64,000 nt of DNA from assembly GCA_009773455.1 (NCBI GenBank), contig WSXU01000007.1, positions 62,001 to 126,000 on the forward strand. The letters run 5' to 3'. The stretch's first letter is position 1. Each line of letters opens with the position of its first letter. This DNA comes from Bacteroidota bacterium. Lineage in GTDB: Bacteria; Bacteroidota; Bacteroidia; Bacteroidales; Lentimicrobiaceae. Positions 29,332 to 62,193 of the stretch are shown here, in pieces. Below the pieces are notes generated by a model that had not been told where the DNA came from, did not search any database, and was given only the letters and a program-made list of their open reading frames with translations. The translations under genes were made by a program, and so were the position numbers.

Positions 29332-29924
29332 TGAGCAGAAAAGCACTTGAAGATACCAGGTACGAACTCATCAAAGCCCACATCCTGGATCCCGATAGCT
29401 CCCCTTTAAGTGAGGAGCATCAGGAAATAATGGAGCGGGTAATATCCGTGGCAAAGATCCTGGACAAAAACCCCATACAGAAACAGGCCATAGCCATCCA
29501 CCAGGCAAAACATCCTCATCTGTCCAAAACCCAGGCTTATGAGGATATCCGCATGGCGGTAAAGCTCTTCAATACCATCCATACGTTCGATTTCGACTTC
29601 TGGCAAACCTGGCTTATAAACGATATTGTAAAGAACATCGAGCGCTGCCGTAACAACGGCACCCCTCAGGCATACCGGGTAATAGCCATGGAACATGCCA
29701 ACCTTATCAAAGCCCTGGGAGAACGTCCGGAGGAAATGGACGATCCACGCCGAACCGAGAAACACTCATTCTATGTGCTGGTCCAGAACAACAATACAAC
29801 CGTTAAGATCGACATGAACAACCTGGAAAAACTCCCTGCTGGCACACTCCAGGAACTCAACAAAGCCCTTTTCGGTGGCAAAGAAATCTCCGATGCTGAA
29901 GTAGAAGACATCTTCAAAACATGA
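29331..29924 (+). CDS. terminase small subunit-like protein
   Basis: 197 residues, starting at the last base of the previous stop and overlapping the large terminase by 4 bp. A DNA-recognition-like N-terminal part (AIAIHQAKHPHLSKTQAYED) precedes a helical middle and a C-terminal tail. It stands where the small subunit, which recognises the packaging site, is expected. Confidence 0.65.
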   Translation: MSRKALEDTRYELIKAHILDPDSSPLSEEHQEIMERVISVAKILDKNPIQKQAIAIHQAKHPHLSKTQAYEDIRMAVKLFNTIHTFDFDFWQTWLINDIVKNIERCRNNGTPQAYRVIAMEHANLIKALGERPEEMDDPRRTEKHSFYVLVQNNNTTVKIDMNNLEKLPAGTLQELNKALFGGKEISDAEVEDIFKT

Positions 29925-31621
29925 TTAACGAGTTAATCACCCTCAACAACCCTCAGCAGATCTCCGTTATCAACAACCCCATTTCTGAAGTAGATATCTG
30001 GGGGCGTGGTACCGGGAAATCCTTTATTGTCGGTTGGGAAATCAACGAGATAAACCGGCGTATGCCCAGGGCAGTTACCAGCATCACCGGACAGACCTAT
30101 GGCCAGCTCCTTACCCGTACTCTGCCCTCTACATTCAAATTCCTGGAGTCTTTGGGCTATGAGAAGGACAAGGACTACCTCATAGGCAAAAAGCCGCCTA
30201 AAGGCTGGCTATCGCCTTATGAACGCATCCTCAAGTATGACAACTTCATCAGCTTTAAAAACGGGAATGGGTACCTCATGCTTTCCCAGGATAGAGCCGG
30301 TTCTGCCCGTGGTCCTAATGTGGACCGGGAAATAGTGGATGAAGCCCTTACAATCGATAAAACTCAGTATGATCAGGAGGTCTCGCCAACCTCTCGCGGG
30401 AATGAAGAATACTTTGGCTTTAAATCACCCGCCCCGGTGCGCCAGCATCACGGCTTCCGGTATGTGTCCAGTATGCCGTTTATGCAGGAGCAGAAATGGC
30501 TGCTGGACTATGGTAAGTACTACGAAGAAGAAGCCGGCATCCTTTTGTTCGATATCTGGAACCGCATAGTGAAGCTCCAGCTGGAGCTAATCACTGCTTA
30601 CCTGGATAACAAGCCACAGCTTTACAAAGACATCTGGAATGAAGTGGTCCGCCTGAAAAGGCAAATCACCCCGTTTGTCAGTAAAGACGGAATCCTATTT
30701 ACCCTGGCAAATGCCTTCGATAACATCACCAACCTGGGCATGTCTTACATCGCCCGGGAATACAAAAAGCAAACCCTGCTCACCTTCCTGGTCGAGATCA
30801 TGAACTGGATCATAGACCGGGTTGAGGACTGCTACTATCACATAGACAGTCAGAAACATGTTTATTACGATGCCACCAATGACAGCTTCATCCGCGATTA
30901 TGCAGAGAATACCAACTGGGATTTTGCAAAGCTCGAAAAACATGACAGTAGGTTTGACCTCGATTGTGACTCCTCCAAGCCCCTCGAGGTGGTTCCGGAC
31001 TGGGGAGCTCACATCTGCCTGTTCTCCATCGGCCAGGAGCGGAACTATAACTTTGTAACACGCATTGTTGAGCCGGTGGACTGTGTCATCAATGAATTCT
31101 ACAGTAAGCCCGATGAATCTCCTGAAGTAGTCATAGACGATGTCGTGGACAAAGTCAGCGCCTACTATGAGCATCACACCTGCAGGGATATTTTCTATTT
31201 CCGGGACCGGTACGGGGACAGTAAGCAGCCCAACGCCAAGAAGAGCAAGCCTTACAATGAGCAGGCAATAGAAAGGTTTCAGAAGAATGGGTGGAATGTA
31301 TTCCCCCGTGTGCACAAAGGCCAGGAGCCCCCACAGCATGAAAAGTATCTGTTATGGTCCAACATCCTCAAAGGGACCAATCCCGGATATCCCAAAGTAA
31401 TCTTTAACGGCAGGAACTGCAAATACACCCTCATCTCAATGAACAACACCAGGGTAATTGAGAAAGATGGTAAGTATGAAAAAGACAAATCCTCCGAGCG
31501 CAAAAAAACCATCCTTCCGGAGGAAGCCACCCACTTCTCCGATGCCGTCGACAAACGCATCTGGACCAAATACGGCAACCGTTTATACAGGACTTCAACG
31601 TTTGTGGAGCCAAGGATATAG
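29921..31621 (+). CDS. terL: terminase large subunit
   Basis: 566 residues; the packaging motor ATPase and headful/cos nuclease. The Walker A site is IWGRGTGKSFIV at about 26-37, Walker B is GPNVDREIVDEAL at about 129-141, and nuclease-type acidic sites include VVPDWGAHICLF near 360. It overlaps the previous gene by 4 bp. The portal gene, usually next, begins only at 37700, after the accessory block B insertion. Confidence 0.92.
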   Translation: MINELITLNNPQQISVINNPISEVDIWGRGTGKSFIVGWEINEINRRMPRAVTSITGQTYGQLLTRTLPSTFKFLESLGYEKDKDYLIGKKPPKGWLSPYERILKYDNFISFKNGNGYLMLSQDRAGSARGPNVDREIVDEALTIDKTQYDQEVSPTSRGNEEYFGFKSPAPVRQHHGFRYVSSMPFMQEQKWLLDYGKYYEEEAGILLFDIWNRIVKLQLELITAYLDNKPQLYKDIWNEVVRLKRQITPFVSKDGILFTLANAFDNITNLGMSYIAREYKKQTLLTFLVEIMNWIIDRVEDCYYHIDSQKHVYYDATNDSFIRDYAENTNWDFAKLEKHDSRFDLDCDSSKPLEVVPDWGAHICLFSIGQERNYNFVTRIVEPVDCVINEFYSKPDESPEVVIDDVVDKVSAYYEHHTCRDIFYFRDRYGDSKQPNAKKSKPYNEQAIERFQKNGWNVFPRVHKGQEPPQHEKYLLWSNILKGTNPGYPKVIFNGRNCKYTLISMNNTRVIEKDGKYEKDKSSERKKTILPEEATHFSDAVDKRIWTKYGNRLYRTSTFVEPRI

Positions 31622-31944
31622 AAGTTGTCCGTTTCTCTTCAGGGAGCTCTTTTTTCAGTATCTTAATACCGAAAGAAACTGCTATAATCTCTTACAGGAG
31701 AAATAACTGGATTTATTTAGTATTTGTTTGGTATTTGATTAATACTAAATACCTTTACATTTGATTAAAAAGAATCAGCATCAAATTGAGTATCTATTGA
31801 AGTATATTGTACTTATAACTATCAGACCTGTTCAACCTGCTTTGGGTGGCTATCACTGAAAATTTAAGACCTATAAACAAGTTATGCGCAATCCGTTGGC
31901 GACAGTGCTAACTTGAGCGGACAGTGCAAAAAATTATAATCAAA
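31622..31944. other. 323-bp spacer; left border of the cassette-like block
   Basis: No gene is seen. It begins with TTGTCCGTTTC at 31625, like the first half of the late promoter motif, without a matching second half. AT-rich direct-repeat-like text (TAGTATTTG/TGGTATTTGATTAATACTAAATACC) lies at about 31717-31753. GTTATGCGC at 31881-31889 is the left border of the first cassette-like unit. Confidence 0.5.
31881..31889 (+). repeat. left border of cassette-like unit 1 (GTTATGCGC)
   Basis: GTTATGCGC is the exact reverse complement of GCGCATAAC at 33648-33656, which lies at the end of the same unit. In integron cassettes the first bases of a cassette pair in the same way with the inverse core of its own attC. 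Confidence 0.5.
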
Positions 31945-33630
31945 ATGATGGAAATAAAGACAGTAGAACCCAAAGCGCCCGACAAATACGAGGCAGCCGA
32001 AGCGGAAAGGACTGAATATGTAAACAAGATTCTTACTTCTAAAGCGGATAAGAAGGTTGTTGTTGCGGGACCTGGGACTGGGAAAACATTTTTATTCAAG
32101 AAGGTTCTGAATGGAAAAACCAAAACCCTCACTTTATCTTTTGTCAATGCTCTTGTTGACGATTTGGCTCTTGAACTTTACGGCATATCAGAAGTAAGAA
32201 CACTACACAGTTTCGGCAGAAGTGAGCTTGCTAAAATTCTAAAGAAGGATGTAAATATTTATTCCAAACTCTCTCATATCATCCGACATGACTTTCAAGT
32301 TTTAACAGGAGGCGACATTGAATTTGATGTCCTGTTTCATGAAAGAAAAGATACTGATGCTAACCTTGCATTTTACGAAACAAGAAGAAAGTTTTATGAC
32401 TGCTACGGTTTCACTGATGTAGTTCATGCAGCAGTAAAGGCATTCGAAACGAATAAGAATAATGTTCCTACCTACGAACAAGTTTTGATTGATGAGTTTC
32501 AGGACTTCAACGAACTTGAAGTTTCATTGATTGACATGCTTGCAGAAAAAAGTCCGATACTTCTTGCAGGTGATGATGACCAAGCACTTTACGAGTTTCT
32601 AAAAAATGCAAGTGCTCATCACATTCGCTTGCGTCACAGCAAAGAAATGCCAGAGTATGAATCGTTCAACCTTCCGTTTTGTGCACGATGCCCCGAAGTA
32701 GTTGTTGCTGCGACAAATGATTTAATTGAGAATGCAAAAGCAAATGGATTTTTGAAAGAGAGAATCAAGAAGCCATACATTTATCTTCCAAATAAAGACA
32801 AAGACAAAATCAGCAGTCAGTTTCCTGCAATAGGTTACACAAACAAATTCTCAACGCAAGTTCCTTGGTTTATTGAAAAGTGCATTGGTGAAACCGCCAA
32901 TGCTCTTAAGAATAAATTTGAAGTTCTCATTATCACTTCAAACAACAATCAGGTAAGAACAATTGCACATTCACTCATAAAAAAAGGTTTCAGGAATGTT
33001 GACTATCCCGAAAAGAAAAAAGACAGAGAAGTAAATCTACTCGATGCATTTGATATGCTGATTCAAAACAAAGTAGACAATCTTGGTTGGAGAATTATTA
33101 TTTCTCTTTTGCTCAAATCTGATGAATGCGACGAGATACTTAAAAAGTCAGCCAAAGATTTATCGATAAATCTTTACAAATTTCTCTCTGTTGATTTTGT
33201 AAAGGCAGTTCTTCAAACCGCTAAAACAGTTAAATACATTTTGCAAGAGAAAACTGTTACTCCCGAATTACTTGAAGCAACCTTCAAACAATTTGGACTT
33301 GACCCTAATAAAATTTCATCCGATTATTTATATGATGAATTCTACGCATTGAATCCACCAAACGGACATCCTGCATTGCGGAACATTCCAATCAAGGTAA
33401 CTACAATTCAAAGTTCAAAAGGACTTGCTGCTGATGTGGTTTTCATTGCGAACTTTGACGACAGATTCTTTCTAAAAGACGGTAGCAATATTTCTGACCA
33501 AGACATTTGCAATTTTCTTGTTGCATTGACACGAACAAAAAAGAAGGCATTTATCATTTCAACTGTTCCAAAGACAACTCCATCTTTACTGAAATGGATT
33601 GACAGGAGCAGAATAGAGCTAATCAAATAG
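31945..33630 (+). CDS. UvrD/Rep-like superfamily 1 helicase
   Basis: 561 residues from ATG 31945 (an upstream GTG at 31924 is weaker). SF1A motifs in order: I AGPGTGKTFLF (about 39-49), II LIDEFQDF (about 180-190), III LLAGDDDQALYEF, V TIQSSKGLAADVVFI, VI LVALTRTKKKAFII. It would translocate on or unwind DNA. It is AT-rich, monocistronic and bounded by cassette-like borders, with an NYN nuclease-like gene next. Helicases of this type occur in several phage-defence systems (for example GajB of Gabija), but no OLD nuclease partner is here, so that role is speculative. Confidence 0.85.
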   Translation: MMEIKTVEPKAPDKYEAAEAERTEYVNKILTSKADKKVVVAGPGTGKTFLFKKVLNGKTKTLTLSFVNALVDDLALELYGISEVRTLHSFGRSELAKILKKDVNIYSKLSHIIRHDFQVLTGGDIEFDVLFHERKDTDANLAFYETRRKFYDCYGFTDVVHAAVKAFETNKNNVPTYEQVLIDEFQDFNELEVSLIDMLAEKSPILLAGDDDQALYEFLKNASAHHIRLRHSKEMPEYESFNLPFCARCPEVVVAATNDLIENAKANGFLKERIKKPYIYLPNKDKDKISSQFPAIGYTNKFSTQVPWFIEKCIGETANALKNKFEVLIITSNNNQVRTIAHSLIKKGFRNVDYPEKKKDREVNLLDAFDMLIQNKVDNLGWRIIISLLLKSDECDEILKKSAKDLSINLYKFLSVDFVKAVLQTAKTVKYILQEKTVTPELLEATFKQFGLDPNKISSDYLYDEFYALNPPNGHPALRNIPIKVTTIQSSKGLAADVVFIANFDDRFFLKDGSNISDQDICNFLVALTRTKKKAFIISTVPKTTPSLLKWIDRSRIELIK

Positions 33631-33647
33631 ACATGAATTCGGGTGGT

Positions 33648-33783
33648 GCGCATAACAAGGGGTTTGAAATAGCGGGGGTTCCGTGCTTCGCAGATAGTTT
33701 TGTGCAAGGTGGAAGTTCATTTCTCCGAATGAAGTATAGTGCTAATAAACCCCGCCATCGCACCCCCCCGAAACGTTGTGTGC
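33648..33783 (+). repeat. attC-like structured recombination site
   Basis: 136 bp. The outer ends pair fully: GCGCATAAC (33648-33656) with GTTGTGTGC (33775-33783), nine pairs with two G-U. Inside, GTTT (33662-33665) pairs with AAAC (33771-33774), and GCGGGG (33672-33677) can pair with CCCCGC (33750-33755) with a bulged G. Imperfect stem with extrahelical bases and GTT/AAC ends are features of integron attC sites, and the length is in their range. The core does not fit the canonical GTTRRRY exactly. Confidence 0.5.
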
Positions 33784-33802
33784 TACCTAAAAAAAATTAC
33801 AC

Positions 33803-34603
33803 ATGCTCACTTATCAAATAAACAATAATAAAAAAACTGAGATTGAATATCTTTTCGTTGATGGGGGATATTTAGATAAAGTGATTTCTGAAGTTGGGAA
33901 AAATTTTTGGAATTCAGATTCTCTTCCTATTGATTATCAAAAACTCGGATTTAGATTTGATAAAATTTTTTATTACAATTGCTTACCAGGTAGAAAAAAT
34001 GGAGAAAATGACACTGACTATGAATGTCGTATAAATCTATCAGTTGAATTTTATGAGAAATTGAAAATGCTGGACAAGTTTCATGTATTTGAAGGCGTAA
34101 CATTTGGCAGAAAAAATAAAATACGTCAAAAGACAGTAGATATAATGATATCTGTCGATATGCTTCGTCACTCTTTCAGGAAAAACATGGATAAAGCATT
34201 TTTATTGACTGGAGATTTAGATTTTAAGCCATTAATTGAAGCATTGATTCTTGAAGGAATGTACACAACTGTTATATATTCTGATACTTCATTTAGCAAA
34301 GAATTACTTTTTGTTGCTGATAGCAATCAAAGAATTACTATAAAGCAAATTCATGATTGGCTTCCAGATGAGATAAAGCCAAATTATCAACTTCCTGAAT
34401 TAAAGCAAAATTATAGAATAGAATCACCTGTTATACTTAAACAAGGTGAAGTAAAAAATAAACAGATCACTTTATTAGGTCGCGATGAAAATGAATTTTG
34501 GCTTCAAATAAACAAGTCGACTTTTTGGAAATTTCATTCAGAACATAAATTGATTTGGTTTTATGAAGATATGATCAATGAAAAGATAAAATGGATAAAA
34601 TAG
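33803..34603 (+). CDS. NYN-domain (PIN-like) nuclease-family protein
   Basis: 266 residues. The NYN pattern is clear: YLFVDGGYLDK (D20), VDIMISVDML (D113, D119) and AFLLTGDLDFKPLIEALILE (D138, D140), the acidic residues expected to hold a metal in LabA/DUF88-like RNases. Substrate would be RNA. The remaining ~70 residues are unassigned. AT-rich; it lies in the second cassette-like unit. Confidence 0.8.
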   Translation: MLTYQINNNKKTEIEYLFVDGGYLDKVISEVGKNFWNSDSLPIDYQKLGFRFDKIFYYNCLPGRKNGENDTDYECRINLSVEFYEKLKMLDKFHVFEGVTFGRKNKIRQKTVDIMISVDMLRHSFRKNMDKAFLLTGDLDFKPLIEALILEGMYTTVIYSDTSFSKELLFVADSNQRITIKQIHDWLPDEIKPNYQLPELKQNYRIESPVILKQGEVKNKQITLLGRDENEFWLQINKSTFWKFHSEHKLIWFYEDMINEKIKWIK

Positions 34604-34606
34604 GCT

Positions 34607-34615
34607 GCACACAAC
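34607..34615 (+). repeat. right border of cassette-like unit 2 (GCACACAAC)
   Basis: GCACACAAC is the exact reverse complement of GTTGTGTGC at 33775-33783, the first bases of the same unit, 4 bp after the NYN stop codon. A matching partial site begins here (CAACGCTATAGCAAATGCAGGG); its right half cannot be recognised. Confidence 0.5.
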
Positions 34616-34743
34616 CAACGCTATAGCAAATGCAGGGTTTACGTGTTCTTTGAAACATTTGACATCCGCATAAATACCCCTCTCCTGGCTACTATACCAT
34701 TCGCTTCCATTCGTCAGTCAGTCGTTAGTCCATGCAAATACTA

Positions 34744-34814: not shown

Positions 34815-35163
34815 ACTGTAATTGCATTCCCTTCCTCCTTCATTTCTCATTACCGTTCATTCCTCAGCATCCATCCTGCCCGCAAATAGAATACAAAATC
34901 AAGCAGAAAAGATAATCGGTATCAGCCATCCGTTCCTCCAGGCTGTTGTCACAATAGGACTGCCCCGGCAGTATCTATTCGGTGCAAAGCCTGCGTTCCT
35001 CCAGCTTTGCGTCGTGTCAGGACTGCCCGCAGGGCAGGCGGTCGGGCTGGGTGCGGCCGCTGGTCGGGTGTGGGTGGGGCTGCCCATTCATATTTCCTCC
35101 TTTTTCTGCTCCTTTTTCTGCCCTCCGGGATAGGGCAGGCTCGGCATTCACTCTGTGAGAACA

Positions 35164-36096: not shown

Positions 36097-36585
36097 ATGA
36101 AAGACAAAGATACTACAAAGGACGAAAACCCCACACGGGAAAAGAGGAGAATATTAAGCGAGTTAAGCCGGGACGCAGAAGCAGTAAGAGAGGGATTTAT
36201 GAGAGCCGCGGAGCAGGCCGGACAGGATAATAAAGTTCTGTATTGGGCAAGTAAGACCATTAATTATATGCTCTTAAATCACATTTACGAAACCGAGGGA
36301 GCGACCGAGTTTAAAACCTTCATGCAATGGAAGCAGGAAGGCGCAACCGTGAAAAAAGGCGCTAAGGCTTTTTTAATTTGGGGGCAGCCACTGGGAACAC
36401 GTGAGGAAGAGAAGGAAAAAGGAATCAGCCCCGAAGATTTTGACAGCCTGTTTTTTCCCCTGTGTTACCTGTTTTCCGATAAGCAGGTAATAAAAGCCGC
36501 AGACAGGGTAAAACCTGAAACCGAAGGCAAAGATCCGGCACCGGTTCTGCAGGAAGCCGAAACGATAACGGATGAAGTTTTCTAA
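36097..36585 (+). CDS. ArdC N-terminal domain-like protein
   Basis: 162 residues. The segment FMQWKQEGATVKKGAKAFLI with the later IWGQP matches the ArdC/DUF1738 N-terminal domain, which binds single-stranded DNA in plasmid and ICE anti-restriction or primase-like proteins. The metallopeptidase part of full ArdC is missing. Neighbouring a RadC-like gene supports origin from a conjugative element. Confidence 0.65.
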   Translation: MKDKDTTKDENPTREKRRILSELSRDAEAVREGFMRAAEQAGQDNKVLYWASKTINYMLLNHIYETEGATEFKTFMQWKQEGATVKKGAKAFLIWGQPLGTREEEKEKGISPEDFDSLFFPLCYLFSDKQVIKAADRVKPETEGKDPAPVLQEAETITDEVF

Positions 36586-37427: not shown

Positions 37428-37703
37428 ATGATCCGGATCCGGAGAGTGGATGTGCTCAGGGAGTATGATGTGAAGGAGACCCCTGATGGCAAACAGGTTA
37501 CTTTCTCAATCAGGTTTGTTAAAAAAACCGGCGAGCTGGTGTTTCTGCCTCGGGCTGTGGCGTGTGGATTACCCTGGGATGTGGCAAGGAGCAGGCAAAG
37601 GGGAGTAATGCCGGTGGATGCAAAAGGGGAGAAGGCAGGGCATGTCTACCCGGTCCGGATTGATAATATCACAGAGTGGAACGGTAAACGGGTGATTTTA
37701 TGA
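37428..37703 (+). CDS. small phage protein before the portal, unknown
   Basis: 91 residues, beta-rich and basic, containing FSIRFVKKTGELVFLPRAVA. It is the first gene after the promoter-like motif and overlaps the portal gene by 4 bp. Family not recognised. Confidence 0.7.
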   Translation: MIRIRRVDVLREYDVKETPDGKQVTFSIRFVKKTGELVFLPRAVACGLPWDVARSRQRGVMPVDAKGEKAGHVYPVRIDNITEWNGKRVIL

Positions 37704-39049
37704 GTGATGTTCTGTATAGCAAAGATGGTACCCCGCTGCTGGCTTTCGGCACCAGGTTTTACGCGGAAACAAAAGGAGCGCCGGCATCCAGACCGGCAGT
37801 ATCAAAGCAGCTCGAAAAGCAGGATGATAAAGTTACCGTGGGAGGTGAAACTCTGGTGGCCTGGGGGCCAAACAATGACTTTCCAACCAGGGCAAACGAA
37901 CTCATCCGGAGCGTGGGAGTGCTCAACACCGGCCTTAAGTTTATCCGGAACTTTACCCTTGGCCAGGGTATTTTCCCCTGCCGGGTAACCGGGTATGATG
38001 ACCAGGGAAATGAGCAGCTTCAGGTACTTGATGATCCCAAAATTGTAAACTTCTGCCAGGGCAGGATGGTACGCCGGTACCTTGAGAAAGCTGCCCGTGA
38101 TTATTTCAAATTCGGCAAAGCCGATGTTCAGATGATACCCAATGAAGCCGGAACCGAAATGGTGGGCCTGAGTACCATCAACACCATGTACAGCCGCTAC
38201 ACCGAAGCCAAATCCGGGATAATTGAAAAGTGCATTGTTTCTGGCCGCTGGCCGGATACCCCACCTGAAGGTGAATTCGAATCTTATGACCTGCTGGATG
38301 AGTATGATCCGTTCTTTGACCTGGAAAGCCGCAGGCTGACGGGCAAGATCCGGGGGAAGTCATTTGTCTATTCAATCAGGGATTCCTGGAGTAATAACGA
38401 TTACTACTCAGAACCCATCTGGTTTGCTGCCTACCTGGCGGGATGGGTGGAAGTGGCCCGCCTTGTGCCGGCATTCCTGAAAAAAGCCTTCAAAAATCAG
38501 ATTACCTGGAAATGGCATGTTCAGATACCTTATGCATTCTGGGAAAGGAAATTCCCATCAGCTGAATACCGGGATATCGCAGCCAGGCAAAAGGCCATCG
38601 AGGAATACATGGATAAAGTTGAAGAGAACCTCTGTGGCACCGACAATGCAGATAAACCCATTTTTACTTTCTTCGAAATCAACCCGCAGAACGGCAAGGC
38701 AGAAGAACAGTGGATCATCACTGCCCTGGATAACAAGTACAAGGAAAATGACAAGTTGATCACCTCTGCAGCTGCAAACTCTGAAATCCTCTTTTCACTC
38801 ATGCTCAACCCCAATGTCCTGGGCGCCGGTATGCCCGGGGGGACCTACTCAGGGAACCAGGGAGGGAGCAACATCCGCGAAGCTTTCCTGGTGAATATTG
38901 CCAACTGCTGGCTAGACCGGCAGAACCTGCTGGACCCGCTCGAGCTCTTTTTGCAGTTTAACGGGGTGAAGGATGTGCAGCTCCGCTTCAGGAACACCAT
39001 TTTAACCACCCTCGATACCGGAGCCGGTACCACCAAAAAACTTTCGTAA
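37700..39049 (+). CDS. portal protein
   Basis: 449 residues, matching portal proteins of Bacteroidota phages in layout: N-terminal VAWGPNNDFP and LNTGLKFIRNFTLGQG, a helical stem-like middle, and a C-terminal QGGSNIREAF region. Portals form the dodecameric ring at the capsid vertex through which terminase pumps DNA. ATGA overlap with the previous gene. Assignment is by position and general features. Confidence 0.75.
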   Translation: MSDVLYSKDGTPLLAFGTRFYAETKGAPASRPAVSKQLEKQDDKVTVGGETLVAWGPNNDFPTRANELIRSVGVLNTGLKFIRNFTLGQGIFPCRVTGYDDQGNEQLQVLDDPKIVNFCQGRMVRRYLEKAARDYFKFGKADVQMIPNEAGTEMVGLSTINTMYSRYTEAKSGIIEKCIVSGRWPDTPPEGEFESYDLLDEYDPFFDLESRRLTGKIRGKSFVYSIRDSWSNNDYYSEPIWFAAYLAGWVEVARLVPAFLKKAFKNQITWKWHVQIPYAFWERKFPSAEYRDIAARQKAIEEYMDKVEENLCGTDNADKPIFTFFEINPQNGKAEEQWIITALDNKYKENDKLITSAAANSEILFSLMLNPNVLGAGMPGGTYSGNQGGSNIREAFLVNIANCWLDRQNLLDPLELFLQFNGVKDVQLRFRNTILTTLDTGAGTTKKLS

Positions 39050-42443: not shown

Positions 42444-44642
42444 TTAAACCGAAAAGTACTTATTCAGTAAACTTTCGAGTTCAATTTTTGAAACCGGTTT
42501 TGTTAGATAATCATTACATCCAGCTGAAATTGCTATTTCCTTGTCACCTTTTAAAGCATAGGCCGTCTGGGCTATTATGATTACTTGATTATTACTCTTT
42601 CTTACTACTCGGGCAACATCTAATCCGCTCATACCAGACATCTTGATGTCACACAAAATTAAATTGATTCCAGGGGTTGACTTAAAAACATCAATCGCCT
42701 CCTGTCCCGATGTTGCTTTATAAATTGTAGAAGTATATTTCCTCATAAGCATATCAATCAACTTCATTGAAGTATCATCATCTTCTACAAGCAAAGCATT
42801 CAGATTTATTAACTTGCCCGGGTTTTCTACCTCCTTCTGGAAATCAACAGTAATTGATGTTTTGGGCAGTTTGGTCAATTGAATAGGCATTTTGAACTGA
42901 AATACAGAACCTGCCCCTTCTGTTGATTCAACTGTCAATTCCCCCTTCAGCAGTTTTGCGTAAGCGTTTGAAATTGATAGCCCCAGACCCGCACCTTCAA
43001 ATTGACTTGAGAAGCTTGAATCTGCCTGAACAAATCGCTCAAAAACTGCCTTAATCTTGCTCTGAGGAATACCAATACCTGAATCCTTTACATAAATAAT
43101 CAGATTGTTTTCGGAAATTTTACTTCCAATCTCTATCACCCCCTTCTTTGTAAATTTCAAAGCGTTTTTAATCAGGTTTGTCAAAATTCCGTAAATCTTT
43201 TCCTGATCAGTATAAATTAAATTGCTTTCAGAAGGCAAAACCTCTTTTAATTTCAACTGTAGGTTTTTTGCTTTTGCTTGAGGTAAAAAGAAATTATAAA
43301 GAAATCTGATCTGATCATTAATGTTTGTAATAGTATAATTCATGGGCACCATCCCTGATTCAAGTCTTGATAGTTCAACCAGGTCGTTGATGATATTAAG
43401 CATCCTATCACCACTTTTCTTTATAATACTTATATACTCTTGCTGCTCTTCACCAGATAGTTCCGGATTTTTTAAAAGTTCTGCAAATCCAAGAATGCCG
43501 TTCATAGGTGTTCGGATTTCATGGCTCATGTTTGCCAGAAAAGCCGATGTTAATTTCTCAGATTCTTCTGCCTTTATTTTTGCTTGTTTGAGAGCCTGGT
43601 TAACCCTGACATATTTTCTGTTGTTGGCTTTAATTTCTAAATTTTTCTCAATAAGATTTTGCTCAAATGTCCGTTGCTCTGTAATATTTACACCTATAGC
43701 AGCAATTGATTCTGGATTACCGCTTTCGTCATGTAAAATGGTAACATTCCATGAAATTATAAATACCTTCTCGTTTTTGCCTTTTATATACGTCTCAATG
43801 GAATCTTTGAACTCCTTGCTAAATAAATAGTTGAGAAATAAGTCTCTGATTTCAAGTCTTCTCTCTTCAGGAATAAAAAGTTCTAAAAAATTCCCATCGA
43901 TAATTTCATCCTGCTCGTAGCCTGTTAATTGTAAAAGTGAATCATTGCAATAGCTTATTAATCCCCGTTTATTCAAAATAACAGTTAAGAGATTCGTACT
44001 TTCAAGTATACTCTTGAATCTTCTTTCCACCTCTAACAGTAAAACTTGTGCTTTCCTGTTTTTCCAGTTTTTCCTCTGTCTCAACATTAATGTTCCAAGC
44101 AGCATTGTGGCAGGAATATAAACAAAAATCAAAGGAATACTGATAACAGAGAGGGTTTTTATTATTGATGATTGAGGTAAAAGAAATGTGCATGCTATCA
44201 TTGCAATATGCACTGTCGTCCCTAAAAGAAGGAGTTCTTTCAATGGTTTCTGCTGAACTTTTTCAGATCTCGTCTTGCGCCAAAGAATTCCAATAGAACC
44301 GGAAAAGAGAATAACTGCTATTCCCATGTAAATACCATCCCCTCCAAGATATATCCGGAATGCCGCGTCAATCACTATGGCAATTATGGTGGGCAAAGGT
44401 CCGAAAAGGAGTCCCGATATAGATAACATAACAGATCGTGTATCAAAAACGATCCCTGGGACTAATGACCACGGACTGAGCATGAGCACAATCCCAATAG
44501 CACCTATAATGCAACCCATTACAATTTTGTACCGGGTCTTTCTATGCTCCTCGTTTTCGACCCAGAAATTATTATAAATCAGGCTGAAAGAAAGCAATAT
44601 AGCAGTGTTCTGCAGCAGTCCGGTAAAAATTGAATTTTCCAT
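42444..44642 (-). CDS. membrane hybrid sensor histidine kinase with PAS and receiver domains
   Basis: 732 residues: N-terminal membrane part of about six helices (1-190) like the 5TM-LYT/LytS sensor, including SISGLLFGPLPTIIAIVIDA; PAS domain (about 205-325); HisKA with NMSHEIRTPM (H374); HATPase with N box ILTNLIKNALKF and G boxes VKDSGIGIPQ and GAGLGLSIS; receiver domain from about 610 with LLVEDD and LILCDIKMSG. A complete phosphorelay input kinase on the opposite strand to the phage genes. Its presence in a prophage is unusual; it may alter host signalling. AT-rich relative to the neighbouring structural genes. Confidence 0.9.
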   Translation of the reverse strand: MENSIFTGLLQNTAILLSFSLIYNNFWVENEEHRKTRYKIVMGCIIGAIGIVLMLSPWSLVPGIVFDTRSVMLSISGLLFGPLPTIIAIVIDAAFRIYLGGDGIYMGIAVILFSGSIGILWRKTRSEKVQQKPLKELLLLGTTVHIAMIACTFLLPQSSIIKTLSVISIPLIFVYIPATMLLGTLMLRQRKNWKNRKAQVLLLEVERRFKSILESTNLLTVILNKRGLISYCNDSLLQLTGYEQDEIIDGNFLELFIPEERRLEIRDLFLNYLFSKEFKDSIETYIKGKNEKVFIISWNVTILHDESGNPESIAAIGVNITEQRTFEQNLIEKNLEIKANNRKYVRVNQALKQAKIKAEESEKLTSAFLANMSHEIRTPMNGILGFAELLKNPELSGEEQQEYISIIKKSGDRMLNIINDLVELSRLESGMVPMNYTITNINDQIRFLYNFFLPQAKAKNLQLKLKEVLPSESNLIYTDQEKIYGILTNLIKNALKFTKKGVIEIGSKISENNLIIYVKDSGIGIPQSKIKAVFERFVQADSSFSSQFEGAGLGLSISNAYAKLLKGELTVESTEGAGSVFQFKMPIQLTKLPKTSITVDFQKEVENPGKLINLNALLVEDDDTSMKLIDMLMRKYTSTIYKATSGQEAIDVFKSTPGINLILCDIKMSGMSGLDVARVVRKSNNQVIIIAQTAYALKGDKEIAISAGCNDYLTKPVSKIELESLLNKYFSV

Positions 44643-59895: not shown

Positions 59896-60120
59896 ATGGA
59901 TCCTGCCTTAAAGAATATCATCAATTCTTTAACCTACGAAGTGGGGGCAAAATTCATCCGTACTGATGATATAGAAAGAATTGCAGAAGCATATGCTGAG
60001 CTGAAATTCGCATCTGGCTACAAACTGGGCTATATGGACCGGTCGGATGAAATTTATACCCATGAAATGGTTACCCGGTACCATGAGTTTATTGGGAAAC
60101 AGGAATATCCTGAGGATTAG
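59896..60120 (+). CDS. small phage protein, unknown
   Basis: 74 residues, mostly helical (LKNIINSLTYEVGAKFIRTD). The last rightward gene of the prophage; its stop overlaps the end of the converging integrase gene. Confidence 0.55.
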   Translation: MDPALKNIINSLTYEVGAKFIRTDDIERIAEAYAELKFASGYKLGYMDRSDEIYTHEMVTRYHEFIGKQEYPED

Positions 60121-61313
60121 TGAGGCTTCGGAAAACCATGAATAATTCGGCTGTTCCGGTTGCCAAAGTGCCGCTTTACATAATGGTCCGTTGTTTCAAT
60201 GCTTTTGTGGCCGAAGTGGTTCTTCACTTCCTCCAGGGTTAAGCCGGCCTCCAGCAGTTTTCCCCCACCAGTGTGCTTCATTGAGTAAAACTTATAGATC
60301 TTGGGTAGTTTAAGTTCATCCCGGAATTTATTGAATCTTTCACGTAATGTATTTTGTCCAAGTGGTTCAATTCCGGGTACCCCATTTCTACCAAAGACAT
60401 AGAAATCCGGTTTAAAAAGGTTTATCTGATATTTGATGCAGAGTTCTGCTAAATCCACCGGCATATCAACGGTTCGCCTGTTTATTTTTGAGTTCACATC
60501 ATCAACAACTACCTTGTAGCTGTGAACATCAATATCTTTAACCTTTAAAAAACGCAATTCCTGTCCTGGTCTGATGGCCAGGTAGTACTGAAACATACAG
60601 GCCAGGTAAAGTTGAGGGTTCCTATCCTGAATAATACTTAACAGCAATTTCAAATCCCTGTCATTGATAGGCCTTGCAGCCATATCTTTTGATTTTGGAG
60701 GTCTGACAACGTCAAAAACAGGATTAACGTTGATTTTTCCCTTTTTAACCAGGTAATTGTAATAGTCCTTCAGGATCTGCTCATACCTGAGAATAGTCAC
60801 CCTATCAAGCTTACTCTCTATGATAAGGAAATCAAAATACCGGAGAATGATTTTATTGTCAATCTCCGTCAAATCATACTCCCCAAATTTGGCATGTTCG
60901 AGCCATTGGATATATATCCGCAATTTGCTCTGGTAGGTGGAATAGGTTTTGGGTTTAAGTCCGTTCTTTCTGCTTTGCAGGTATTCTGAGATATAGAAAC
61001 GGGTGTTCTTTACTGTTTTCTTGGTTGCATTGAACTTTCTGGATAGAAGCTCGTAATCCGTTTCATCTTTGTAAATGAATTTCTCTGAATCATCAAGCGG
61101 GTTCCAGCCTGCTTTCAACTTTTTAATTAATTCAGCAACCAACTTCTTACCCCATACTCTTTTCTGAGCAGTGGTTTCACATTGCTTAAAACCTTCATAA
61201 ACTTTTCTTGGAACCATTTTATCAGTCAATGGATTCTTGACTGAAAAATAAACATACCAGTCACCGTTGCTACCTTCTACAACGCGCGGTACTGAAGCGA
61301 TTTTTGTTTTCAT
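60117..61313 (-). CDS. int: tyrosine-type site-specific integrase
   Basis: 398 residues from ATG 61313 (a GTG at 61337 would add eight residues that lie in a repeat). A core-binding domain (about 95-190) and a catalytic domain (about 210-395): Arg in LAIRPGQELRFL, the box II YSMKHTGGG, GHKS in NHFGHKSIETTDHY with the catalytic Tyr. Box II reads YxxKH rather than the canonical HxxRH, a substitution often seen in integrases of Bacteroidota. It would integrate and excise the phage at tRNA-Ala, 100 bp to its right. Confidence 0.92.
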   Translation of the reverse strand: MKTKIASVPRVVEGSNGDWYVYFSVKNPLTDKMVPRKVYEGFKQCETTAQKRVWGKKLVAELIKKLKAGWNPLDDSEKFIYKDETDYELLSRKFNATKKTVKNTRFYISEYLQSRKNGLKPKTYSTYQSKLRIYIQWLEHAKFGEYDLTEIDNKIILRYFDFLIIESKLDRVTILRYEQILKDYYNYLVKKGKINVNPVFDVVRPPKSKDMAARPINDRDLKLLLSIIQDRNPQLYLACMFQYYLAIRPGQELRFLKVKDIDVHSYKVVVDDVNSKINRRTVDMPVDLAELCIKYQINLFKPDFYVFGRNGVPGIEPLGQNTLRERFNKFRDELKLPKIYKFYSMKHTGGGKLLEAGLTLEEVKNHFGHKSIETTDHYVKRHFGNRNSRIIHGFPKPH

Positions 61314-61327
61314 AACCTGGTTTTTAT

Positions 61328-61346
61328 GCGTCCCCACACATAAAAC
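61328..61346 (+). repeat. 19-base repeat shared with 14336-14355
   Basis: GCGTCCCCACACATAAAAC; differs at one base from the copy at 14336. It lies in the leader of the integrase gene, near the attachment site. Confidence 0.5.
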
Positions 61347-61440
61347 AAGGTCACTTTTTTCTATTCAGACAAGTTTTTCAGATCAATAGAAAATCAAATT
61401 TCATCTAATCCATTGATTTTAAAGAACTTGAAGAAAGGTA

Positions 61441-61458
61441 GTGGAGCGTAGGGGAGTC
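61441..61458. repeat. right attachment site (attR core) within tRNA-Ala
   Basis: GTGGAGCGTAGGGGAGTC, identical to 12970-12987, and the last 17 bases of the tRNA plus one. The integrated phage copy restores the tRNA 3' end here. Confidence 0.88.
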
Positions 61459-61515
61459 GAACCCCTGACCTTTAGACTGCCAGTCTAACGCTCTAGCCAA
61501 CTGAGCTAACGCCCC
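61442..61515 (-). tRNA. tRNA-Ala (anticodon GGC)
   Basis: 74 nt on the minus strand. All arms fold: acceptor GGGGCGT/ACGCTCC with the G3-U70 pair that marks tRNA-Ala, D arm GCTC/GAGC, anticodon stem TTAGA/TCTAA with loop CTGGCAG (anticodon GGC), T arm AGGGG/CCCCT with TTCGA. CCA is not encoded. It is the phage attachment site. Confidence 0.97.
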
Positions 61516-61611: not shown

Positions 61612-62193
61612 ATGAAAAGAAACAGCATGGGCATGGAAAATATGCGGTTGTTCGTTGCTATAAAAATTGATCCGCAGGAACAATTCCTGAACACATACGG
61701 ATTCCTTAAGCAGGCGCTTGATTTCAACATTATTAAGTGGGTTGAACTTCAGAATATCCACCTGACCCTTAAATTCATCGGCGATACTCTTCCCGATGAG
61801 GTTCCACAAATCATTGAAGCACTTTCAGAAGCCTGTGAGGGAATTAGTCCATTCCAGCTTGAAATTGCAAATACAGGTGTATTTGGAAGCAATTACAATC
61901 CAAAAGTTATCTGGTTTGGCATTACACCCAATGCAATGCTTTCAAGCCTTGCTCAAAATGTCTCATCAAAACTTGAAACAGTGGGCATCCTGGGAGACCG
62001 GCAAAATTTTGTCCCTCATCTTACCATCGGACGAATCCGCGAGATAAAGGACAAAAAGTATTTTCAGCAACTTATGGGAAGATTCAATGAAGTGGAACTG
62101 CAAAGTCAGGCTGTAACCGGATTCACTTTATATGAGAGTATTCTGAAGCGTGAGGGTCCGCAATACAATGAACTGGAAACCTATCATTTCTGA
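61612..62193 (+). CDS. thpR: RNA 2',3'-cyclic phosphodiesterase (ThpR/LigT family)
   Basis: 193 residues; a 2H phosphoesterase with two HxT motifs, HLTLKFIG (about 56-63) and HLTIGRIR (about 136-143), symmetrical around a pseudo-twofold fold. The family hydrolyses or ligates 2',3'-cyclic RNA ends; the exact activity is not inferred. Possible starts: ATG at 61612, or internal ones at 61627 and 61642 (the last gives MRLFVAI, the usual family start). Confidence 0.9.
   Translation: MKRNSMGMENMRLFVAIKIDPQEQFLNTYGFLKQALDFNIIKWVELQNIHLTLKFIGDTLPDEVPQIIEALSEACEGISPFQLEIANTGVFGSNYNPKVIWFGITPNAMLSSLAQNVSSKLETVGILGDRQNFVPHLTIGRIREIKDKKYFQQLMGRFNEVELQSQAVTGFTLYESILKREGPQYNELETYHF

Follow-up and report, generated by a model that had tools for sequence, protein, structure and literature searches.

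A prophage in the genome of a Bacteroidota bacterium (family Lentimicrobiaceae; GenBank assembly GCA_009773455.1) probably carries an integrase-less fragment of a Bacteroidota integron-like system, namely an attI-like site followed by two gene cassettes; we put the probability of this reading at roughly 78%. The fragment lies in the 64,000-nucleotide stretch of contig WSXU01000007.1 from position 62,001 to 126,000, referred to here as the window, in whose numbering positions are given. An earlier, sequence-only reading had proposed a two-gene cassette array with integron-like border logic, which lacks an integron integrase and is mobilised by an unknown enzyme. The finding is real and larger than that reading supposed. 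Comparison of sequences between genomes shows the sites of the system, their borders, a fixed insertion point and an adjoining recombinase, from which cassette recombination would be expected.

All four borders proposed for the window are present: GTTATGCGC at 31881 and GCGCATAAC at 33648 for unit 1, and GTTGTGTGC at 33775 and GCACACAAC at 34607 for unit 2 (Table 1). The units are AT-rich as described, with a GC content of 0.30-0.38 within the insert against about 0.47-0.51 in the left flank, and their products are, as suggested, a UvrD-like helicase (PF00580, 1.3e-14) and a NYN protein (PF01936, 9.7e-11). The start of cassette 2 matches its own end at 9/9 positions, mismatches at positions 10 and 11 and matches again at 4/4 of positions 12-15, which is the family pattern throughout. 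The start border of cassette 1 has the A at position 11 that is typical of the family and matches at 1/4 of positions 12-15. The borders do mark two cassettes, with the amendments that unit 1 has an attI-like site at its left edge and that the last site is degenerate on the right or has lost that half, the site model described below giving no match there. Of the two or more attC sites expected in a cluster of attC sites lacking integron-integrases (CALIN), the window holds one full and one half site, and its only integrase is the phage integrase at 60117-61337.

Table 1. Features of the insert and of the probable prophage end, in window coordinates
Feature	Position	Strand	Remarks
Stretch missing from close phage relatives	31622..35088	+	blastn homology ends near 31572 and starts again at 35089
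attI-like landing site	31795..31884	+	core TATAAACAA followed by GTT at 31872-31883; profile aligned at 31815-31884
Start border, cassette 1 (GTTATGCGCAATCCG)	31881..31895	+	positions 1-9 reverse-complementary to the end border
Cassette 1 gene, UvrD/SF1-like helicase	31924..33630	+	568 aa, GTG start; in-frame ATG at 31945
attC-like recombination site	33648..33783	+	inverse border 33648-33656, conserved middle ~33675-33756, border 33775-33783
Start border, cassette 2 (GTTGTGTGCTACCTA)	33775..33789	+	compared with its own end
Cassette 2 gene, NYN-domain protein	33803..34603	+	266 aa
Last attC-like site, left half	34607..34680 (end approximate)	+	GCACACAAC plus GGGTTTA / TAAATACCC hairpin
Phage integrase gene (60117-61337) beside tRNA	60117-61515	-	likely prophage end

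Taken on their own the borders are weak evidence, their rarity being too low to convince. Three 9-nt inverted pairs of this kind occur between 31.5 and 35 kb, versus a mean of 0.75 in Markov versions, 17% of which contain at least two. The 136-bp folded site proposed between the cassettes is likewise unremarkable as a single-sequence DNA fold (z -1.14; 30/200 shuffles fold equally well), and a plain DNA search of phage records returned nothing useful. The observation rises above chance through homology: the middle of the site is repeated in relatives, its stem is kept elsewhere and a profile of attI sites matches the window at the left border of unit 1.

The middle of the site is found as a repeat in 7/98 related genomes by plain DNA search, its own genome apart; one relative has three copies and another has two. 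The arms and borders outside the middle vary between sites and the pairing is retained. In an alignment of 22 sites, compensatory changes occur in 15/15 stem pairs, so that the claim of a folded site, unremarkable on the single sequence, holds for the family by covariation. The model built from this alignment (R2), scored with up to 11 candidates per genome, has matches in 184/295 genomes of the window's order and in 150/296 genomes drawn across the phylum, consistent with the suggestion of a site family in Bacteroidota. The host genome contains 18 matches at E up to 0.1, and the site at 33648-33783, which belonged to the training set, scores 114 bits. For 126 sites outside the training set, from 31 loci, all 15 stem pairs are again compensated, and 92.6% of cells are paired versus 53.3% in shuffled and 30-43% in slid controls; this alignment (A5) was fitted to the model and leans towards structure, against which the slid controls guard only in part. 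Over 14 pairs (one U-G-rich pair left out) 1600 cells are Watson-Crick, 13 are G-U and 134 are mismatched. Since G-U pairs are not favoured, the structure fits folded DNA and not RNA. A5 columns 16 and 195 hold T-G in 73/126 sites, though G-U is almost absent elsewhere; this stem position is possibly a required mispair or an extrahelical base.

If the units are integron-like cassettes, each start must pair with the end of the same unit, and not with the opposite end of the adjacent site. For the border count 269 sites were used, after 3 matches cut by contig ends and 8 others (7 overlap duplicates and 1 partial) had been dropped. Units were the 195 neighbouring same-strand site pairs less than 5 kb apart, and 191 of these have both anchors. 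The six variable border positions fully match the unit's own end in 155/191 units; within single sites a 6/6 match is seen in 9/252. Mean matches of six are 5.45 for the own unit, 2.60 within sites and 2.42 in shuffled units, and the expected covariation of borders per unit is therefore present. A longer profile was drawn from the 169 units with at least 5/6 matches at positions 4-9 and 30 bases on both sides, a selection that leaves only positions 10 onward independent. Position 10 matches in 64%, position 11 in 1% (the start has A in 99%) and positions 12-15 in 83-89%, with chance level from position 16 on. Position 4 is A or G, as in a border box GTTR. The consensus GTTRRRY / RYYYAAC of integrons does not describe these 169 units, in which A or G occurs at position 5 in 43% and at position 6 in 52%, and C or T at position 7 in 34%.

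Units have a median length of 679 nt. Of the 195, 166 have their main frame (at least 60 aa) on the strand of the array, 10 have it on the opposite one and 19 have no such frame; the proteins of 110 of the 166 were scanned. The sites sit after stop codons at a median of 18 nt, as would be expected of RNA elements or transcription terminators at gene ends, with border pairing as a by-product. This explanation can be nearly dismissed, since the pairing spans hundreds of bases from unit start to unit end and is not within the site, G-U pairs are nearly absent, and an Rfam search gave no family matching the site. The arrangement known from integrons is found here: cassettes stand in tandem, and the inverse core of a folded attC site pairs with the start of the cassette to which the site belongs.

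Matches to TIGR02249, the integron integrase family, are all sub-threshold in the host genome. Among them is a host-encoded 390-aa tyrosine recombinase on a contig other than the window's (G000:C33:575-1744), whose relatives lie directly upstream of arrays and on the same strand in four genomes (G239, G298, G001 and G230). A scan of named genomes used the best 80 of 252 recombinase relatives, mostly from Flavobacterium and unclassified Bacteroidota. In these 80 loci 168/168 R2 sites are on the recombinase strand and 166 are downstream. Overall, 51/86 recombinase loci have a downstream site and none has one on the opposite strand. On a Chryseobacterium plasmid the recombinase is followed by six sites. 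The sequence-only reading was correct for the window in finding no integron integrase, and is supported in supposing an unrecognised enzyme, for which a candidate heads the arrays; this candidate is a tyrosine recombinase, and the host encodes it on another contig. Together with covariation of the borders per unit and of the fold, it bears out the idea of a Bacteroidota cassette family with integron border logic.

The additional domain of IntI, about 44 alignment columns, is filled in 22 IntI references and empty in 87/87 array-type recombinases. TIGR02249 scores 163-215 bits in 10/10 array recombinases, below its cut-off of 265 bits. The best NCBIfam match is XerA/NF040815 for 8/10; one of the ten is above the cut-off of that family (220 bits) and nine are at 192-215 bits. 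The fold match is also XerA (5hxy, E 4.7e-17). The columns that are invariant in 42 recombinase proteins include the arginine, lysine, histidines and tyrosine. An extra N-terminal domain is often present, for which the HARP / XPB damage-recognition fold is a possible match. A quick tree with only 4 Xer rows sets the new enzymes (SH-like approximate likelihood ratio test, 89) apart from IntI (99) and does not show their nearest group. A different set of proteins was seen at G230:C1:109890-303192, where eleven matches to 310-316-aa tyrosine recombinases, unlike the array enzyme, lie on one strand over about 200 kb. The NCBI name for such proteins is 'site-specific tyrosine recombinase/integron integrase', a label common to XerA.

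The landing site was mapped by predicting the start of the first cassette from the end of the first site and then searching for it after the recombinase. In 41/50 testable loci the first cassette starts 83-108 nt past the end of the recombinase match, which indicates an attI; the best start match is elsewhere in 7 and there is none in 2. An attI beside the integrase gene, with the first cassette beginning there, is a further property of integrons found in these loci. TATAn(A/G)nnA precedes GTT in 38/40 attI regions. These 40 regions, all from named loci in genomes other than the window's, were made into an nhmmer profile; one of them (L078, offset 225) is unlike the rest. The profile's sole match in the window, at 31815-31884, ends at the left border of unit 1 (E 1.1e-6, and E 8e-6 in a larger search), and 20 Markov versions of the window plus its reversal gave nothing below E 0.5. 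The core TATAnACnAGTT occurs once in the window, both strands counted, at 31872, within the stretch matched by the profile. It also matches immediately behind recombinase genes, full or broken, of the plasmid, of G211 and of three G097 contigs, and on the host contig GATATAAACAA followed by GTT can be seen by eye about 100 nt past the recombinase stop codon. Five G097 contigs (C104, C27, C79, C98 and C138; loci L030, L038, L039, L036 and L037) carry C-terminal fragments of the array recombinase of about 50-60 aa, directly followed by an attI-like site on C104 and C27 and by a weak one on C79; attachment sites of this type, each with an incomplete integrase, seem to be dispersed. The Chryseobacterium plasmid has a second attI-like site far from its recombinase (L149:30724-30815).

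The same cassette logic would be seen if these were ordinary attC sites of a normal integron run by canonical IntI, the patch-less recombinase beside the arrays being coincidental. Canonical IntI genes do occur in the phylum, over the TIGR02249 cut-off in 84/296 genomes. This alternative is nevertheless improbable. The host genome has no TIGR02249 match above cut-off, matching genomes in the window's class number 1/85, and the spacing between the patch-less enzyme and attI is fixed. Among 20 canonical IntI neighbourhoods from the same phylum, only 3 have R2 matches at E up to 1; the strongest reaches 29.5 bits and is on the opposite strand. These weak matches (18-30 bits, in L175, L177 and L181) lie beside the IntI gene on the strand opposite to the integrase; R2 may faintly recognise canonical attC sites.

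The system resembles integrons, including the reverse-oriented ones of Spirochaetota, in that a tyrosine recombinase adjoins an attI, one-gene cassettes stand in tandem, the two ends of a folded site pair within the cassette and the crossover box starts with GTT. It differs in that the recombinase is encoded on the array strand, lacks the IntI additional domain, scores below the IntI cut-off and often has an extra N-terminal domain. In place of GTTRRRY the border box reads GTTR, and the pairing extends over 15 nt with one fixed mismatch. The system works like an integron and is not classed as one, because the IntI domain and the R-box consensus are absent. XerA/NF040815 is the best family and fold match; the enzymes here differ in being mostly under its cut-off and in their cassette-array setting. 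For the Shewanella prophage M16-3, passages of PMC9892861 describe a CALIN that follows an attI of its own and is placed among structural genes of the phage. Such phage CALINs and integrons share with the window an attI and cassettes, without an integrase, inside a prophage; as described there, they differ in having been found with canonical attC tools. Polaribacter phage P12002L, taken from the same paper, gave only weak R2 matches of 26 and 25 bits. The delta-attI cassettes of mobile integrons, as presented in parts of PMC12901181, are similar in that attI fragments travel with cassettes, and differ in coming from class 1 and 2 integrons with resistance genes.

That the insert lies in a prophage, as proposed, is supported by a tape-measure protein (PHROGs 2.7e-113), by the phage integrase beside a tRNA and by relatives in IMG/VR; the placement between terminase and portal is not, these labels lacking confirmation from Pfam or PHROGs. 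Thirteen IMG/VR loci encode relatives of the gene preceding the insert, and three of them are again homologous to the window from 35089 onward. The 3.5 kb of the window correspond to about 0.33 kb in L190 and L184 and to about 1.45 kb of other DNA in L185, with no attI-like and no cassette site at the slot in any of the three. As the slot is near-empty or filled with other DNA in relatives, the insert occupies a variable cargo slot. It had been argued that the cassette idea would fail if related prophages carried the genes without the borders, or if the pairing were not kept. The pairing is kept across the family, and the comparable phages lack genes and borders together, which makes them empty slots and not counter-examples.

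Among nine related viral records, the two nearest have one strong cassette site each, at another phage locus. The two share 96.7% identity across 2.9 kb of left flank and then a 21-nt edge, beyond which their cassettes differ; both show AGTTTATGCGTTTATTTACnA followed by GTT at the cassette edge, and one has about 80 extra nt ahead of it. This comparison is the best sign of cassette exchange, and it suggests that phages of this lineage may exchange such cassettes. The cargo of one is a CAP12/Pycsar-type TIR gene followed by a TIR-NLR gene, and that of the other an AbiJ_NTD4 gene. The proposal of defence cargo is thus clear for these two phages and merely suggestive for the window, where PADLOC reports a GajB-like helicase (3e-15) and NYN (1.4e-8).

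A competing account, to which we give somewhat less than an even chance, regards the prophage segment as a dead relic, in which the end of a host integron recombined illegitimately into the cargo slot of the phage and is no longer a substrate of any enzyme. The degenerate right half of the last site would fit this, as would the other cargo of the slot in L185, the lack of anything comparable in L184 and L190, and the failure to find close homologues of both window genes as cassettes. On the other hand, the cassette 1 site has an intact sequence, as does the attI core, and the same left edge with different cassettes in two related phages suggests exchange at least there.

Several observations weigh against the integron-like reading itself. 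Recombination has been inferred and not observed. The window's two genes were not found as cassettes elsewhere, so the expectation of the same genes with the same borders at other loci failed: there is no NYN relative among 294 other genomes searched, and the helicase has relatives in 2 of the 294 (34 and 37% identity), with no site within the 9.1 kb examined. A search for viral relatives of the helicase found none and plasmids gave only distant helicases. Unit 1 of the window fits the outer 4-bp pairing poorly (1/4). The attI profile missed the regions after the recombinases of the host (G000), G001, G230, G239 and G298 and gave no match in related phages. Finally, 35/86 recombinase loci have no downstream site; 25 of these end within 1 kb and 10 do not, the latter including L089, for which a cut-off match was left out. 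Contig breaks less than 1 kb from the recombinase, as in those 25/35, are expected if arrays assemble poorly.

In the proposed integron-like mechanism, the recombinase would recognise one folded DNA strand of the cassette site, and a circular cassette would be joined into the double-stranded attI between G and TT. The newest cassettes would then adjoin attI. In the prophage the enzyme would act in trans from the host copy; the prophage may have gained its attI and first cassettes from a host integron and later lost the right half of the last site. A broader proposal, for which the odds seem to us about even, is that Bacteroidota possess a second integron class with an origin other than patch-bearing IntI, where the N-terminal DNA-structure domain of a Xer/XerA-like recombinase replaces the IntI patch for folded sites, and integrase-free attI pads in phages swap defence cassettes by means of the host enzyme. 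If this second class exists, IntI-based tools overlook the system. According to passages of PMC9024848, surveys with IntI and attC tools find integrons to be very rare in Bacteroidetes, with In0 only in the authors' earlier study and, in their later one, a single complete integron from Salinibacter ruber. Part of PMC9668308 holds the IntI additional domain to be necessary for integron recombination. A system working as outlined above would raise the question of how folded-DNA recombination proceeds without that domain, and would amount to a large and hidden reservoir of mobile genes, anti-phage genes among them, which phages themselves carry. No description of the system was found in searches of open-access literature; preprints and most subscription journals lay outside the search and an earlier description is possible.

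Around the insert, the genes at 29921-31621 and 37700-39049 have no informative Pfam or PHROGs match. Just to its right, 36097-36585 encodes an ArdC N-terminal-like anti-restriction protein (PF08401, PHROGs anti-restriction). Further on, at 42444-44642, a 732-aa protein matching several PHROGs of unknown function is encoded on the minus strand, opposite to its neighbours.

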